The translations under genes and the position numbers were made by a program. DNA of 64,000 bases, from the NCBI GenBank assembly GCA_945881835.1, contig CAMCVP010000001.1, forward strand, positions 248,001 to 312,000, in the 5' to 3' direction. Under the pieces are notes generated by a model. That model was given only the letters and a program-made list of their open reading frames with translations. It was not told where the DNA came from and did no database searches. Numbering within the stretch: the first letter of the stretch is position 1; each line of letters starts with the position of its first letter. This document shows, one piece after another, positions 5,701-64,000 of this stretch. Source of the DNA: Chryseobacterium gleum. Lineage in GTDB: Bacteria > Bacteroidota > Bacteroidia > Flavobacteriales_D > Sanyastnellaceae.

Positions 5701-5746
5701 GATAATGAGATAAAATATAGAGTCAAAAGGTTGTTTGAGTTGAAAA

Positions 5747-5772
5747 ATAAAAGCCCTTTCGGGCTTTTAAAA
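5747..5772 (-). terminator. Rho-independent-like terminator hairpin
   Basis: AAAAGCCCTTTCGGGCTTTT inverted repeat with a T-run on both strands, downstream of the 5773-6117 gene. Confidence 0.65.
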
Positions 5773-6117
5773 TTAGTCTTCGTCTTCGTCAGATTCATCG
5801 GCGTCGTCAGCAACGTCGTCGTTGTCATCCTCATCGTCGTCATCGTCATTTGAATCGTCATCTGATTTGAATCCATCAATGTCATTCAAGTTCAAACCGT
5901 CATCGTTTCCTTCTTCCTCATCGACCTTCATGTTCTTGTCAATCTTGAACAAGTAAATGGTGTCTTCCGTGCGGATTTCAAGAGCTTTAATAAATTCACC
6001 TTTTGGAGTGGTGAAAGAAACTAAGTGTTCATTTTCGAAACCGTTCGGATAAGCGGCTTCAATTAATGCAGCATGTTCGTCAGTTATGCTGTTGTAGTCT
6101 TTAATTACGCGTTTCAT
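5773..6117 (-). CDS. Conserved small protein with Asp/Glu-rich C-terminal tail
   Basis: MKRVIKDYNSITDEHAALIEAAYPNGFENEHLVSFTTPKGEFIKALEIRTEDTIYLFKID; tail DDDSNDDDDDEDDNDDVADDADESDEDED. Confidence 0.75.
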   Translation of the reverse strand: MKRVIKDYNSITDEHAALIEAAYPNGFENEHLVSFTTPKGEFIKALEIRTEDTIYLFKIDKNMKVDEEEGNDDGLNLNDIDGFKSDDDSNDDDDDEDDNDDVADDADESDEDED

Positions 6118-6134
6118 AATTCAAAAAAAAACTC

Positions 6135-7112
6135 TTAGTGATTTAATAGCCAAGCAAAAATAAGAGGAGCAACAATTGTCGCGTCGCTTTCAATAATAAA
6201 TTTAGGAGTGTTAATGTCTAATTTACCCCAAGTAATTTTTTCGTTTGGAACTGCACCGCTATACGATCCGTAACTGGTGGTGCTGTCTGAAATCTGACAG
6301 AAATAACCCCAGAATGGAATGTCGTGCATTTCCATATCTTGATAAAGCATAGGCACCACACAAATTGGGAAGTCACCTGCAATACCGCCGCCGATTTGGA
6401 AGAATCCAACTCCTTTTCCACCTGAGTTCTTGGTGTACCAATCTGCTAACCACATCATGTATTCAATACCGCTCTTCATAGTGGTAGGCTGAATTTCACC
6501 TTTGATGCAATAGCTAGCGAAAATATTTCCCATGGTGCTATCTTCCCATCCTGGACAAATGATTGGAAGGTTACGCTCTGCAGCAGCAATCATCCAAGAG
6601 TTCTTCGGGTCAATTTGGTAGTATTGTTCCAATACACCGCTCAAGATCATTTTGTACATGAACTCATGCGGGAAATAACGCTCGCCTTTCGCTTGCGCAT
6701 CTGCCCAAAGTGCATGAATGTGTTTTTGCAATCTTCTGAATGCTTCTTCCTCTGGGATACAGGTGTCGGTAACACGGTTCAATCCACGTTCCAACAAACC
6801 CCATTCTTCTTGCGGAGTTAAATCGCGGTAATTCGGAACACGCTCGTAGTGATCATGAGCCACAAGGTTCATAAGATCTTCTTCGAGGTTCGCACCGGTG
6901 CAAGAGATAATGTCAACCTTCCCAGCGCGAATCATTTCCGCCAAAGAAATTCCTAACTCTGCAGTAGACATAGCTCCTGCTAGAGTGATCATCATTTTGC
7001 CACCTTCTGTTAAGTGTGCTTCGTAACCTTTGGCTGCGTCAACCAAAGCCGCAGAGTTGAAGTGCAAGTAATTGCTCTCCATGAACTCACGCATTGTAGA
7101 ATATTTTCCCAT
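6135..7112 (-). CDS. Deoxyhypusine synthase-like family protein
   Basis: Deoxyhypusine-synthase-type motifs: ITLAGAMSTAELGISLAEMIRAGKVDIISCTGANLEEDL, GVGFFQIGGGIAGDFPICVVPML, PFWGYFCQISDSTTSYGSYSGAVPNEKITWGK. Confidence 0.88.
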   Translation of the reverse strand: MGKYSTMREFMESNYLHFNSAALVDAAKGYEAHLTEGGKMMITLAGAMSTAELGISLAEMIRAGKVDIISCTGANLEEDLMNLVAHDHYERVPNYRDLTPQEEWGLLERGLNRVTDTCIPEEEAFRRLQKHIHALWADAQAKGERYFPHEFMYKMILSGVLEQYYQIDPKNSWMIAAAERNLPIICPGWEDSTMGNIFASYCIKGEIQPTTMKSGIEYMMWLADWYTKNSGGKGVGFFQIGGGIAGDFPICVVPMLYQDMEMHDIPFWGYFCQISDSTTSYGSYSGAVPNEKITWGKLDINTPKFIIESDATIVAPLIFAWLLNH

Positions 7113-18555: not shown

Positions 18556-19020
18556 TTATGGAAACCAATAAAAGTCTTCTTTTCCGCAGCCCTGAATCAA
18601 TTGGCTCCACGATTCTATCTCGAGTTGCATTTTAACAACAGCCGATTTCTTAAACGGATGTTGCATGCCGGTGAGGTATTGTGAAAGATTAGAGACACCC
18701 GGATTGTGTCCTATGAGAACCACGTCATTCCAATCGTTTGGAAGAAGTTCAATGACTTCTAACAAGTCTGAAAGTTCAGCGTTGTAAATTCTTTTTTCTA
18801 AATGAAGAACAGGCTTATGGCTTTGCGTGGTACTCAGCGCATGCGCGGTAGAGTAGGTGCGCACGGCAGGACTAACGATCCAGTTTGTTGGAAGTTGTCC
18901 GAGGTGATTTCCCAGCGCTAATGCTTGAAGGTTTCCGCGTTCGGTCAGCGGTCTGAAGCTGTCGGGCTGTCCGTAAAGGTCTTCCGCTTCAGCGTGACGA
19001 ATAATGTAAAGTGTCTTCAT
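18556..19020 (-). CDS. sixA: Phosphohistidine phosphatase SixA-like histidine phosphatase
   Basis: MKTLYIIRHAEAEDLYG (RHA motif), VLIGHNPGVSNL. Confidence 0.85.
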   Translation of the reverse strand: MKTLYIIRHAEAEDLYGQPDSFRPLTERGNLQALALGNHLGQLPTNWIVSPAVRTYSTAHALSTTQSHKPVLHLEKRIYNAELSDLLEVIELLPNDWNDVVLIGHNPGVSNLSQYLTGMQHPFKKSAVVKMQLEIESWSQLIQGCGKEDFYWFP

Positions 19021-19784
19021 TAAACGTTGTACTCTCTTCCTTTTACGTTTAGCACTTTCGTGTATTTCTTCAAGCTACGAAGAACAATGAAAATGATGAA
19101 TCCGCTGAACAAAGCGGTGTGCCAAAACGGAGTAAGGATTTCCTTCCAACCGAAATATCCGAAGTGCACGTAGTTCTTCAGTGCGTCGAGCAAAGCGAAG
19201 GAAATGAATACTGCGAAGAATCCGTTGTATTCGCGTTTCAACACGTTACGCAATGAGAATTCTACAGGTGCAGATTTCCATGAAGAGAAACGTGGGAAGA
19301 AAGGCGGAGTTCTTTCGGTCCATTTGATGTAAACGTCTCCGAATTTATTTCGAAGGAAGAATTCTTCTGCGAACATGATGCGTTCGTAGTACAACCAGAA
19401 CAGTAGGCATGAAGTAAGTGTGAACCACCAGTTACCAACGTACATTATGATACCTAACCACATGAAGAAGTTCCCTAAGTAAAGTGGGTGACGAACAATG
19501 CTGTAGATGCCTGTGTGATTTAACACTTCAGCAACCTGACCTTCTTTGGTATTTCTACCTGAAGTACCTTTCGGAGTATAACCGATTGTTATTACGCGAA
19601 TAAGTTGTCCGAAAAATGAAATACCTAAGCACGTCCAAGCCCAAGTTTTATCGAACAACGGATTGTCTGTATCCAATTCAAACCAAATAACCGAAGCGGC
19701 TAAAACATACAATGCCAGTGGAAGAAAGCTGCGCCAACGAAATAGCCAGTTCCCACTTTTGTTCATCTCTTCAATAAGCGCCAT
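19020..19784 (-). CDS. Isoprenylcysteine carboxyl methyltransferase-like (PEMT/ICMT) membrane protein
   Basis: TGIYSIVRHPLYLGNFFMWLGI...EERIMFAEEFFLRNKFGDVYIKW-type motif (YYERIMFAEEFFLRNKFGDVY). Confidence 0.82.
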   Translation of the reverse strand: MALIEEMNKSGNWLFRWRSFLPLALYVLAASVIWFELDTDNPLFDKTWAWTCLGISFFGQLIRVITIGYTPKGTSGRNTKEGQVAEVLNHTGIYSIVRHPLYLGNFFMWLGIIMYVGNWWFTLTSCLLFWLYYERIMFAEEFFLRNKFGDVYIKWTERTPPFFPRFSSWKSAPVEFSLRNVLKREYNGFFAVFISFALLDALKNYVHFGYFGWKEILTPFWHTALFSGFIIFIVLRSLKKYTKVLNVKGREYNV

Positions 19785-19816: not shown

Positions 19817-19969
19817 ATTCTTCGAATCAATTGCTGCGCAATCAATCCTGCGGATCAATCACTGCGTGATCAATTGCTTCGCAATCAATCCTTCGGATAA
19901 ATCGGAACGATTGATCGCAACGCGATTGATTCGAAGAATTGATCTGAAAGATTGATCACCGAAGGTGAT
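19817..19969. repeat. Micro-hairpin array, CA/TG linker type (11 units), left flank of module A
   Basis: ATTC-TTC-GAAT ca ATTGC-TGC-GCAAT ca ATCC-TGC-GGAT ca ATCAC-TGC-GTGAT ca ATTGC-TTC-GCAAT ca ATCC-TTC-GGAT aa ATCG-GAA-CGAT tg ATCGC-AAC-GCGAT tg ATTC-GAA-GAAT tg ATCT-GAA-AGAT tg ATCACC-GAA-GGTGAT. Confidence 0.95.
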
Positions 19970-19991: not shown

Positions 19992-20079
19992 CATCACGTT
20001 GATGTCATCCGGAACGGTCATCACGAAGTGTCATCCTTCAAGGAAGGTCATCACCAAAGGTGTCATCGGCATTTCGCCG
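19992..20079. repeat. Micro-hairpin array, TCAT linker type (6 units)
   Basis: CATCA-CGT-TGATG tcat CCG-GAA-CGG tcat CAC-GAA-GTG tcat CCTTC-AAG-GAAGG tcat CACC-AAA-GGTG tcat CGGC-ATTTC-GCCG. Confidence 0.95.
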
Positions 20080-20081
20080 TT

Positions 20082-20119
20082 GAATAAACAGCATATAACC
20101 TGCATATAAAAATTGGTGT
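20082..20119 (+). promoter_or_regulatory. 38-bp shared module motif, copy A (regulatory or recombination site, function unknown)
   Basis: GAATAAACAGCATATAACCTGCATATAAAAATTGGTGT; 36/38 identical to the minus-strand copy at 48376-48413. Confidence 0.85.
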
Positions 20120-20150
20120 GTTTTTCAAATTGGCGAAATAGGTTTGCTCT

Positions 20151-21017
20151 ATGGAACAAAACCTAATTAAATCAGAAATAGAATCACGAATATTTACCAT
20201 ACGTGGGAGGCAAGTGATACTCGATAGTGATTTGGCGAATTTTTATGGTTCTGAAACGAAGTATATTAACAGAGCTGTCAGCAGAAATATAGATCGGTTT
20301 CCACCAGATTTCGCATTTCAACTGTCGCTAGATGAGTTTGAAAGTTTGAGGTGCCAATTTGGAACCTCAAAGAATTCAAGAGGAGGGCGCCGTTATATGC
20401 CATTCGTATTCACTGAGCAAGGCGTGTCTATGCTCTCTGCTGTTTTGAACACAAATATTGCAATCAAAATCAGCATTCAAATTATTCGGGCATTTGTCGA
20501 CCTCTGCAAATCAAATGCAGATATAAATCTTTTAAATAGTAGGATTGACCGTCTTGAAGCGAAGCAGGTTATATCAGAATCAAAACTGAATAAAGTTCTA
20601 AATGCCCTTGAAGGAAATAATTCACCAAGCAGTGGCATATTCTTCGACGGACAAATTTTTGACGCATATGTCTTTTCAAGCGAACTTATTTCGAGATCAA
20701 AAAAATCAATTGTGCTTATCGATAATTTTATCGATGAAAACACATTATTGCAACTTTCGAAAAGAAGTCAAAAGGTAAATTGCATTATATACACAGAGAG
20801 AATATCAGAGCAATTAAAACTCGACTTGAAGAAGCACAACGCACAATATCCTCCGATTGAAATTCGAATTTTAAAAAGTTCACACGACAGATTTTTAATT
20901 CTTGATGAGAAAGAACTTTATCACATTGGGGCTTCATTGAAAGATTTAGGAAAGCGATGGTTTGCTTTTTCGAGAATGGATGGGCTTGTTAAAGGAATAC
21001 TTAATCACCTTCGGTGA
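20151..21017 (+). CDS. ORF6N-domain protein with C-terminal PLD-like domain
   Basis: N-term IFTIRGRQVILDSDLANFYGSETKYINRAVSRNIDRFPPDFAFQL...RRYMPFVFTEQGVSMLSAVLN (ORF6N); C-term IVLIDNFIDENTLLQL...KSSHDRFLILDEKELYHIGASLKDLGKRWFAFS (degenerate PLD-like H-x-R-x4-D). Confidence 0.88.
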   Translation: MEQNLIKSEIESRIFTIRGRQVILDSDLANFYGSETKYINRAVSRNIDRFPPDFAFQLSLDEFESLRCQFGTSKNSRGGRRYMPFVFTEQGVSMLSAVLNTNIAIKISIQIIRAFVDLCKSNADINLLNSRIDRLEAKQVISESKLNKVLNALEGNNSPSSGIFFDGQIFDAYVFSSELISRSKKSIVLIDNFIDENTLLQLSKRSQKVNCIIYTERISEQLKLDLKKHNAQYPPIEIRILKSSHDRFLILDEKELYHIGASLKDLGKRWFAFSRMDGLVKGILNHLR

Positions 21018-21164
21018 TCAATTCTTCGAATCAATCTTTCAGATCAAGCCTTCGGATCAAACCTTAGGTGAAATCGGAACGATTGATCACCGAAGGTGAT
21101 TGATTGCTTCGCAATTGATTACGAAGTGATTGATCACCAAAGGTGATTGTGAGGACTCCGTCCT
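21004..21164. repeat. Micro-hairpin array, CA/TG linker type (about 11 units), right flank of module A
   Basis: ATCACC-TTC-GGTGAT ca ATTC-TTC-GAAT ca ATCT-TTC-AGAT ca AGCC-TTC-GGAT ca aACC-TTA-GGT gaa ATCG-GAA-CGAT tg ATCACC-GAA-GGTGAT tg ATTGC-TTC-GCAAT tg ATTAC-GAA-GTGAT tg ATCACC-AAA-GGTGAT tgtg AGGAC-TCC-GTCCT. Confidence 0.95.
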
Positions 21165-21844
21165 TACAGCATTTTCAACGATCCCATTCCACCATCCAAT
21201 CCTATAACCTGCCCCGTCATCCAAGAGCTTTTGTTGCTTAAGAGGAAGGTGATGGCTTCGGCAAGATCGTTCGGTTGACCTATTCGGCCTAGCGGATGAC
21301 GCTTGTTAGAGGCTTCGAGTTTTTCGGGCGTGTTGATAAATTTGTCGGCCAATTGCGTTTGCGTAAGCGATGGGGCAACGACGTTCACGCGAATCTTCGG
21401 AGCCAATTCAGCAGCAAGGCTTTTGCCCAATCCTTCCAAAGCTCCTTTCGCCATAGCTACACTCGCGTGAAAGGGCATACCCAATTTCACAGCAACGGTG
21501 CTAATGAACACAATAGAGGCCGACTCTGATTTTTTCAAATAGGGAAGTGCCAACTGCGTCGCCTTCAGCGCGCCGTAGGCATTAATGTTCATGTCGGAAA
21601 GAAACACTTCGTGAGAAATGCGATGAGCCGGAAGTAAATTTATACTACCCGGACAATACACCAATCCGTCTAAAACCAATCCTTCCGGAAGATTCAATGC
21701 ATTATCTTCAATATTCCAAACCAAATTGTTCACCTGAGATGACGCTTCGCGTGAAGTGAAGTAAACTGTATGTCCTTGCGCTTCGAGTAATTCTACCGTA
21801 GCAGCGCCAATGCCCTTCGATCCACCAATAACTAAATAATTCAT
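21164..21844 (-). CDS. Short-chain dehydrogenase/reductase
   Basis: MNYLVIGGSKGIGAATVELLEAQGHTVYFTSR; catalytic-type region ending MTGQVIGLDGGMGSLK. Confidence 0.9.
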   Translation of the reverse strand: MNYLVIGGSKGIGAATVELLEAQGHTVYFTSREASSQVNNLVWNIEDNALNLPEGLVLDGLVYCPGSINLLPAHRISHEVFLSDMNINAYGALKATQLALPYLKKSESASIVFISTVAVKLGMPFHASVAMAKGALEGLGKSLAAELAPKIRVNVVAPSLTQTQLADKFINTPEKLEASNKRHPLGRIGQPNDLAEAITFLLSNKSSWMTGQVIGLDGGMGSLKML

Positions 21845-47469: not shown

Positions 47470-47521
47470 GAATGTCTTTTAGACGAATGCCTTCGGCGAA
47501 TGCTTCGCGAATGTCTTCGAC
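47470..47521. repeat. Micro-hairpin array, GAAT linker type (4 units)
   Basis: gaatGTC-TTTTA-GAC gaatGCC-TTC-GGC gaatGC-TTC-GC gaatGTC-TTC-GAC. Confidence 0.93.
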
Positions 47522-61609: not shown

Positions 61610-64000
61610 TTATTGAATACCCAATTCTTTTTTTGCATCAGGCACTGAAATTCTTTTGCCATTTTTATAAGCTGCAATAAAGGCATCCGGGATACCATTT
61701 GCTCTCACAAAATCGCGTTGCTTGTTAACGTCGGCAATGGTTTGAAATTTACCACTGGTGTATCGAATTTGCCCATTCGCAAGTTTCTCTACATGCAAAT
61801 CTGAATACGTATTTAAAACGGTATTTCGAGTAGGCTTCGCATACACTCCAATTTGAACAGTAAAAAACACACCTTGTGTCGTTTCAATGAGTTTAGCCGA
61901 TACGGCAAGTGGATCAGAATAATAGGTCACATCTACAACCGGAGCCGCGGCAGTTATGTTGGTTTCACCAGTTGAGGAAGCACGCTCTGCCTCGGTCATT
62001 AAGTCGCTGTAGCGAACACGCTCTCTGTTTTTGTAAGCTATAATAAATGCATCGCCGTATCCCATTTGACGAATTTCATTTCGGGCTTGAATGGCTTCCG
62101 TGTATGAACTGAAAAATCCAGTACTATATCGAATGAATCCGTTCGACTGACGTTCGGCATAAACGGGCGCAAATTGATTGAACGTGTTGTTCGCAACAGG
62201 AATGCGAAAAGCACCAACTTGGATAGTGTAAAAAGATCCCTCTGGCAAAGGCAATCCAATTGGAATCGGATTCACATCGCTATACACCGAGGTCGTTTGT
62301 TTTTGATACAAAGTAGATTTAATAATCTCAGGAATGGTTGTGAAAGAACTAGCGTTGTTGGAACTGACGTTGTTGGAACTGACGTTGTTGGAACTGACGT
62401 TGTTGGAACTAGCGTTGTTAGAACTAGCGTTGTTGGAACTGGCGTTGTTGGAACTTGCGTTGTTGGAACTGACGTTGTTGGAACTAGAGTTGTTGGAACT
62501 GACGTTGTTGGAACTTGCGTTGTTGGAACTTGCGTTGTTGGAACTTACGTTGTTGGAACTGACGTTGTTGGAACTTGCGTTGTTAGAGGCAGGAGTTGTT
62601 TTTTCAACTAAAAATTGCAATTCATTTTTTGCATTTCTTTCTAAGGCAAATGCTCTCGCATTTTTTGCGTAACGCTCGAAGAAATCAGCTTCAGTTTTAG
62701 CGGCTGCGCGAAGTGTGCTTGCCTCTTTCATGTATGCAACAGCATTTTCATACGATTTTTTATCTTCGAGAGTAGCAATGCTCGTAGGCACCCCGGTATT
62801 TTTCTTCCAAGCAGATTGAAGATCAATTAAGATATTCGAATTGTGCTCTGCAATGAGTGCAGCATTCTTATCCTCCTCTTGCATTTTCTGGAATGTCAAT
62901 TGGTTGCGTTGTTCCGTCAATTCAGCAATTCGCTCCTGAGAAGTTTCAGCCTTAATTCTTCGGTTTATCGTCTCGATTTCACTGTACAGTTTTTCAATTT
63001 CTGCACGATTGGTGATTTCAACGCTTTCGCTTTTCAACTCATCAAAAATATTTTCATCCTTGTAATTCGACTGTCCTGGACTATTGATAATGCTCGTTTC
63101 CGCTGAAGAAAAAGTTCTGTCAGAACTCACGTTGTTAGAACTGTCGTTGTTGGAACTTGCATTGTTAGAACTGTCGTTGTTGGAACTTGCGTTGTTGGAA
63201 CTGGCGTTGTTAGAATTGGCGTTGTTAGAACTTACGTTGTTGGAACTTACGTTGTTAGAACTGTCGTTGTTGGAACTTGCGTTGTTAGAACTTACGTTGT
63301 TAGAACTTACGTTGTTAGAACTGGCGTTGTTAGAACTTACGTTGTTGGAACTTGCGTTGTTAGAACTGTCGTTGTTGGAACTGGCGTTGTTCGCTGCAGT
63401 TGGATTTTCGTAATGTGAATTCTCCAATGCTGTTGAAACACGATTTTTCGATTCGGTGATTTCAGTTTTTAGAGATTCAACATCAACAGTGTTGGTTAGA
63501 TTTTTAAATTCAGGTTTGATCTCAGGTTGTTTCTCGTTTTCTAATTCTTGAAGCAGTTTCAATAACGTTGAGGCCTCTTGCAGAGCCAACTCGCGGATCC
63601 GAAGATTTTCTTTTTCAGCTTCAATATCTTCCTGAGCAGATGCATACTCAGCTTCGAGCGCATTCAATTCGTTCGCCAAACGTGCGATATCTTTTTTCTT
63701 TTTTGTGACAGACATTTGCTTATTCAGAGAATTCGCCTGCTGCTCAATTTCTTCAAGTTCTCTCGTCTTTGTATTAATTCTGAGTTGAGCATCGTCGCGT
63801 TGAGCTTTAGCTTCATTTACTTTCGCTTTAGCATCTTGCGATTTCCAAGATACTTCCTTTTCAGTTGCAAGTCCTAGTTCGCTTTTCGGGTTTTTAGCAA
63901 CATAATCATTAACTAAATAGGCAGCCATCGGCGTGTCTTTTTCCGCGAGAGATTCCTTGATTTGCTTATTTGTAGCTTGAACATTGCTAAGCTGTTCGCG
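61610..64000 (-). CDS. Coiled-coil/Asn-Ser-repeat protein with two C-terminal SPOR-like domains (5' end outside window)
   Basis: C-term FYTIQVGAFRIPVAN...RYSTGFFSSYTEA and FFTVQIGVYAKPTRN...RYTSGKFQT (SPOR-like); two NNxSS pentapeptide blocks; frame stays open to base 64000. Confidence 0.85.
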   Translation of the reverse strand, partial: REQLSNVQATNKQIKESLAEKDTPMAAYLVNDYVAKNPKSELGLATEKEVSWKSQDAKAKVNEAKAQRDDAQLRINTKTRELEEIEQQANSLNKQMSVTKKKKDIARLANELNALEAEYASAQEDIEAEKENLRIRELALQEASTLLKLLQELENEKQPEIKPEFKNLTNTVDVESLKTEITESKNRVSTALENSHYENPTAANNASSNNDSSNNASSNNVSSNNASSNNVSSNNVSSNNASSNNDSSNNVSSNNVSSNNANSNNASSNNASSNNDSSNNASSNNDSSNNVSSDRTFSSAETSIINSPGQSNYKDENIFDELKSESVEITNRAEIEKLYSEIETINRRIKAETSQERIAELTEQRNQLTFQKMQEEDKNAALIAEHNSNILIDLQSAWKKNTGVPTSIATLEDKKSYENAVAYMKEASTLRAAAKTEADFFERYAKNARAFALERNAKNELQFLVEKTTPASNNASSNNVSSNNVSSNNASSNNASSNNVSSNNSSSNNVSSNNASSNNASSNNASSNNASSNNVSSNNVSSNNVSSNNASSFTTIPEIIKSTLYQKQTTSVYSDVNPIPIGLPLPEGSFYTIQVGAFRIPVANNTFNQFAPVYAERQSNGFIRYSTGFFSSYTEAIQARNEIRQMGYGDAFIIAYKNRERVRYSDLMTEAERASSTGETNITAAAPVVDVTYYSDPLAVSAKLIETTQGVFFTVQIGVYAKPTRNTVLNTYSDLHVEKLANGQIRYTSGKFQTIADVNKQRDFVRANGIPDAFIAAYKNGKRISVPDAKKELGIQ
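62345..62590 (-). repeat. 15-bp tandem coding repeat (NNxSS), block 2
   Basis: 16 consecutive pentapeptides NN(A/V/S)SS; + strand reads repeated GTTGTTGGAACTNNC. Confidence 0.95.
63112..63392 (-). repeat. 15-bp tandem coding repeat (NNxSS), block 1
   Basis: 18 consecutive pentapeptides NN(A/V/D)SS, one NNANS variant. Confidence 0.95.

Follow-up and report, generated by a model that had tools for sequence, protein, structure and literature searches.

Strings of mini-hairpins, in which the linkers are fixed and the self-complementary stems vary, were found to enclose small gene cassettes that are present or absent at the same sites in related genomes, and unrelated cargo in these cassettes follows one shared leader. 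The loops show a preference for C(GNA)G, and the units have a fixed polarity. We consider there to be about an even chance that these arrays are cassette borders that recombine with each other and whose hairpins are maintained at the level of DNA; what is read directly from the genomes is the anatomy, and the mechanism would be its explanation. As far as searched, this kind of cassette is confined to one genus of freshwater Flavobacteriales. Searches of open-access papers found no matching description of hairpin arrays in this bacterial group, and array-bounded packaging of exchangeable genes looks to be undescribed.

In the window (the whole 64,000-nt stretch of DNA that was analyzed), an ORF6N gene is enclosed by such arrays, with arrays A and B before it and array C behind (Table 1). 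Between the leader and the gene, the sequence TAGGTTTG resembles TAnnTTTG, the Bacteroidetes -7 promoter box, and is a putative promoter element.

Table 1. Features around the ORF6N gene in the window
Feature	Position	Strand	Remarks
Left flanking core gene, PEMT/ICMT-type methyltransferase	19020..19784	-	Border of the insertion site
Array A	19817..19969	.	Linker family I (CA/TG); 11 hairpins, all perfectly paired; TNC loops in the forward half, GNA loops in the reverse half that follows
Array B	19992..20079	.	Linker family II (TCAT/ATGA), 6 units, other stems
Cassette leader AGCATATAACCTGCATATAAAAATT	20090..20114	+	Present in 7 of the 9 genomes of the genus, ahead of cargo genes that are unrelated
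TAGGTTTG	20139..20146	+	Putative; resembles the Bacteroidetes -7 promoter box, from the leader alignment and inference
Cargo, ORF6N-domain protein, 288 aa	20151..21017	+	PF10543, E 1.8e-32
Array C	21004..21147	.	Family I; the last bases of the ORF6N gene lie within it; extends toward the SDR stop codon
Right flanking core gene, short-chain dehydrogenase (SDR)	21164..21844	-	

The initial annotation had described array A as 11 self-paired units, and this description holds: all units have 3-base loops, perfectly paired stems 4 to 6 bp long, and AT at both ends. The CA-linked units 1 to 6 are, as stem and loop, ATTC-TTC, ATTGC-TGC, ATCC-TGC, ATCAC-TGC, ATTGC-TTC, and ATCC-TTC, and the TG-linked units 7 to 11 are ATCG-GAA, ATCGC-AAC, ATTC-GAA, ATCT-GAA, and ATCACC-GAA. 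When the window was dinucleotide-shuffled 100 times, hairpin chains reached at most 5 units compared to the 11 of the real sequence. In 452 kb from the contig of the window, 2 arrays of at least 5 units were counted compared to 0 in six shuffles; with chain scores rewarding stem strength, the numbers were 4 compared to 0 in 5 shuffles, and with a looser threshold, 11 compared to 0.8. Shuffled controls, which had been proposed as the check on a structured element, thus gave no comparable arrays, and the element was not refuted. Folded as RNA, the whole array A stretch scored a z of -6.2, part of which is a long fold-back between its two halves. At the Rfam gathering score the window contained one tRNA only, and the array matches no known structured RNA family. 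What has to be given up is the treatment of the array as a local feature: it is real at 19817-19969, but its unit is not unique, and other arrays lie beyond these bounds. The initial annotation, correct as to structure, did not take in the other linker families of like design, the leader, or the setting among cassettes.

When units were cut by the ATCAAT junction alone, ignoring pairing and allowing spacings of up to 30 bases, 305 of 329 spacings were 13, 15, 17, or 19, which means that almost every loop has 3 bases. The suggestion that the units resemble UUCG tetraloops was therefore not supported as a general form. Perfect self-complementarity was found in 281 of the 300 odd-length units defined in this way, as expected from the earlier proposal that the architecture is conserved and each unit pairs with itself. 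Internal pairs were Watson-Crick in 96 to 99%, compared to 51 to 82% when the 3′ arms were reshuffled among units of equal length. It is the junction, and not the stem, that defines the unit.

The stems do not vary freely, as had been supposed, but are drawn from a vocabulary of 22 recurring words, nine of which cover most units, and their order is partly conserved. For instance, ATTC-ATCT was observed 15 times compared to 2.2 expected, ATCTGAC-ATTGC 14 times compared to 2.2, and ATTGC-ATCACC 13 times compared to 2.7. This small vocabulary with a preferred order means that the array copies share descent, with much turnover of units. Comparison of orthologous arrays showed whole units gained or lost (146 gaps), and the loop was changed in 52 of 126 aligned units with the same stem. 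Paired substitution between species, another proposed check, did not refute the element either: where two stems differ, the change is in both arms, although for many of them the alignment does not separate a paired substitution from replacement of the whole unit.

The same design was found with other linkers, namely ATGA/TCAT, CCTC/GAGG, ATTC/GAAT, AGA/TCT, CCT/AGG, CAAA/TTTG, and alternating ATTCC/ATTGG, and every one of these families has varying self-complementary stems. The unit pattern occurred 42 times in the source genome compared to 0 for a reversed-pattern control. Of 9 genomes of the genus, 8 contained family I and likewise 8 family II; all compared genomes are draft assemblies, in some of which arrays lie near contig ends. 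In sampled sequence of sister genera and of one member of the same genus (G007), the hairpin-array design was at no excess over shuffles. A scan for the ATCAC unit in one genome per species (85,462 species) returned 35 stretches, of which 34 were from Flavobacteriales or Bacteroidetes metagenome-assembled genomes (MAGs); MAG sample codes in the record titles suggest a lake habitat. Phage, plasmid, and viral sequences gave no match to the array or the leader.

Some smaller or unusual occurrences were also seen. At 47474-47519 and 2244-2286 of the window there are brief runs of hairpins whose linkers are of the GAAT and TCT types, probably small members of other linker families. A 772-aa open reading frame (ORF) at 61610-63928 on the minus strand encodes long SSNNx pentapeptide repeats, whose DNA (62353-62584 and 63118-63391) is a 15-base version of a 14-base intergenic aac..gtt hairpin repeat; this gives the impression of an array captured into a reading frame. 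Other ORFs run through arrays (L322:5666-5836 with an ORF at 5715-6299, and L117:1154-2914); these would yield repetitive peptides, and gene callers may annotate them as genes.

Several features of loops and orientation were apparent. First, the inverted second half noted in array A is the rule, since arrays with both halves run forward to reverse in 28 cases and in the opposite order in 1. Second, loop and linker are coupled: TNC and GNA loops stood at 104:6 in units followed by CAAT, GNA and TNC loops stood at 90:6 in units followed by TGAT, and a polarity of like kind is present in other linker families. Third, GNA or TNC loops made up 541 of 770 array triloops (70%) compared to 129 of 701 background perfect triloops (18%), GAA/TTC being the commonest, and a C-G pair closed 80% of array triloops compared to 19% of background hairpins. 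DNA hairpins with GNA loops are described as extraordinarily stable, GAA more so than GTA, in the account given in PMC6479982, which cites Yoshizawa 1997. The preference for C(GNA)G, a triloop known to be very stable in DNA, points to folding as single-stranded DNA, and the link to such folding that the initial annotation had drawn is supported. G.T and A.C mismatches were equally rare and few in number, with no asymmetry, and therefore do not tell whether the folding strand is DNA or RNA. With ViennaRNA parameters, the GNA and TNC strands did not differ in energy, so any difference between them rests on published work.

Three sites illustrate the exchange of cargo. At site 1, between the methyltransferase and SDR genes, the flanking core genes are ∼43 bp apart and the site is empty in G001, and the two genes are about as close in G007. 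The same site is filled in three other genomes, each time with arrays: ORF6N in the source genome, ParDE in G005, and in G002 both ParDE and a Fic-type gene (we take these to be ParDE and Fic from their sequences rather than from a profile search). No target-site duplication was seen by eye in the flanks of site 1. Site 2, beside a gene that by its sequence is presumably recG, contains a single array in G004, a single array-enclosed MNT/HepT cassette in G001, and three cassettes and further genes among five arrays in G003. Site 3 has a single array in G001 and G004, and in the source genome HepT/MNT (identified by profile) and AbiE-type cassettes flank that array on both sides. Empty sites carry zero or one array, and about one array is added per gained cassette.

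Copies of the leader AGCATATAANCTGCATATAAAAATT numbered 45, spread over seven genomes of the genus, compared to 0 in the 28 genomes searched outside it, and the genes after the leader include ORF6N, KilA-N, ParDE, MNT, DUF1016, and others. A high-scoring array was upstream of the leader in 22 of 29 cases compared to 7 of 352 control gene starts. Among 75 array-enclosed ORFs the commonest families were ORF6N (6), HTH_3 (6), MNT (5), and HepT (4), none of which was among the families listed for 75 control ORFs. Many arrays also adjoin ordinary core genes, e.g., biotin carboxylase, which, like the lack of a visible target-site duplication at site 1, counts against the cassette-border reading.

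In its anatomy, a cassette has an array of any of the linker families in front, then the conserved leader with a single small operon (ORF6N, KilA-N, ParDE, MNT/HepT, HigBA, DUF1016, or others), and a second array behind. The arrays may recombine with each other or with incoming single-stranded DNA, and cargo would consequently be swapped between array-bearing sites. The hairpins would persist through folding of single-stranded DNA, with selection, hairpin-templated correction at replication, or both keeping the arms matched; template switching (PMC8794818) is a proposed route for such matching. The tyrosine recombinases in the array-bearing genomes are mainly XerC/D-like, and apart from these the searches brought up no recombinase present in every array-bearing genome, which also counts against the model. 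A solitary tyrosine recombinase lies beside an ATTC-linker array in G006 (L318:5050-5904), and a decayed remnant of one is at the corresponding place in G001 (L319:8057-8323). The G006 enzyme is a candidate for cassette movement.

Other explanations fit parts of these data. It is possible, though somewhat unlikely, that the arrays are a neutral mutational product, formed as template switching copies, deletes, and corrects mini-hairpins at replication while mobile genes pile up in permissive gaps. Template switching is able to make and maintain perfect stems (PMC8794818, PMC7202029), and its correction of quasipalindromes likewise accounts for both hairpin arms changing together; the gain and loss of whole units (146 gaps), the differing loops in 52 of 126 aligned same-stem units, and the arrays adjoining core genes are also in its favor. 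However, it is a mutational process and not an element, and it leaves unexplained the cargo, the linkers fixed within each family, and the strict polarity. The conserved leader between array and cargo and the absence of the design from sampled sister genera and G007 also argue against it.

An action as RNA, with arrays serving as bidirectional terminator-like or 3′-end-protecting strings of hairpins in the transcripts of flanking genes, appears unlikely. Convergent genes flank 24 of the 53 family I arrays, compared to ∼17% of adjacent ORF pairs being convergent, and the forward-reverse order of the arrays means that both strands read alike. Against this, 9 of the 53 lie between divergent genes, arrays stand directly upstream of the leader, terminator-like sites in the region numbered 1 compared to 1.5 in shuffles, and the loops most often found belong to a class noted for stable DNA hairpins.

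It is highly improbable that the arrays are REP/BIME-like elements mobilized by a REP-associated Y1 transposase (RAYT, or TnpA-REP). They resemble REP/BIME in being dispersed, grouped intergenic hairpins in many copies and opposed orientations, enriched near gene 3′ ends, and Y1 transposases are present in the source genome (2), G001, G004, and G006. Unlike in REP/BIME, however, the hairpin sequence is not conserved (22 stem words, only the linkers being fixed), there is no tagged foot, several linker families occur, the arrays border gene cassettes, and there is no tie to a Y1 transposase. Membership was rejected since the Y1 gene is missing from the array-bearing G002, G003, and G005 and elsewhere has its own, different palindromic ends. 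The Y1 transposases at L224, L225, and L220 have palindromes with GCATGGG...CCCATGC, apparently an ordinary REP/RAYT set separate from the arrays. A guide-RNA array of the TIGR-Tas or CRISPR type can be dismissed almost entirely, because, although tandem units with short fixed and variable segments recall TIGR stem-loop arrays with their variable palindromic sequences (PMC12045711), there are no separate spacers, the Nop-domain Tas protein was found in 0 of 5 genomes, and variable parts that pair mutually and come from 22 words hold almost no guide information.

The cassette-border reading invites comparison with integrons. As with integron cassettes and attC sites, the cassettes are small, often toxin-antitoxin, and have borders defined by fold over sequence, with N cassettes and N+1 border elements. 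Unlike in integrons, they are scattered over many chromosomal sites, many have their own leader, and each border is a string of many mini-hairpins. Membership was rejected because the IntI integrase profile (TIGR02249) exceeded its curated cutoff in 0 of 7 genomes, though exchangeable cassettes with structured borders occur at three sites. We class the element as dispersed palindromic repeats with cassette behavior. The alternative is a separate class of mobile cassette, proposed here only tentatively, whose sites would be strings of mini-hairpins recognized by fold and linker and not by stem sequence, with several linker families per genome. If so, new stems could arise without loss of function.

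Apart from carriage by phages, plasmids, and integrons, the way in which toxin-antitoxin and defense-type genes move between bacterial genomes often has no explanation. In the present set of related genomes, cargo of unrelated kinds has one leader and borders defined by structure, and empty and filled sites coexist. This means that two questions become testable: by what route cassettes of a single gene come to be exchanged, and how the two arms of a hairpin keep a perfect match as their sequence changes.
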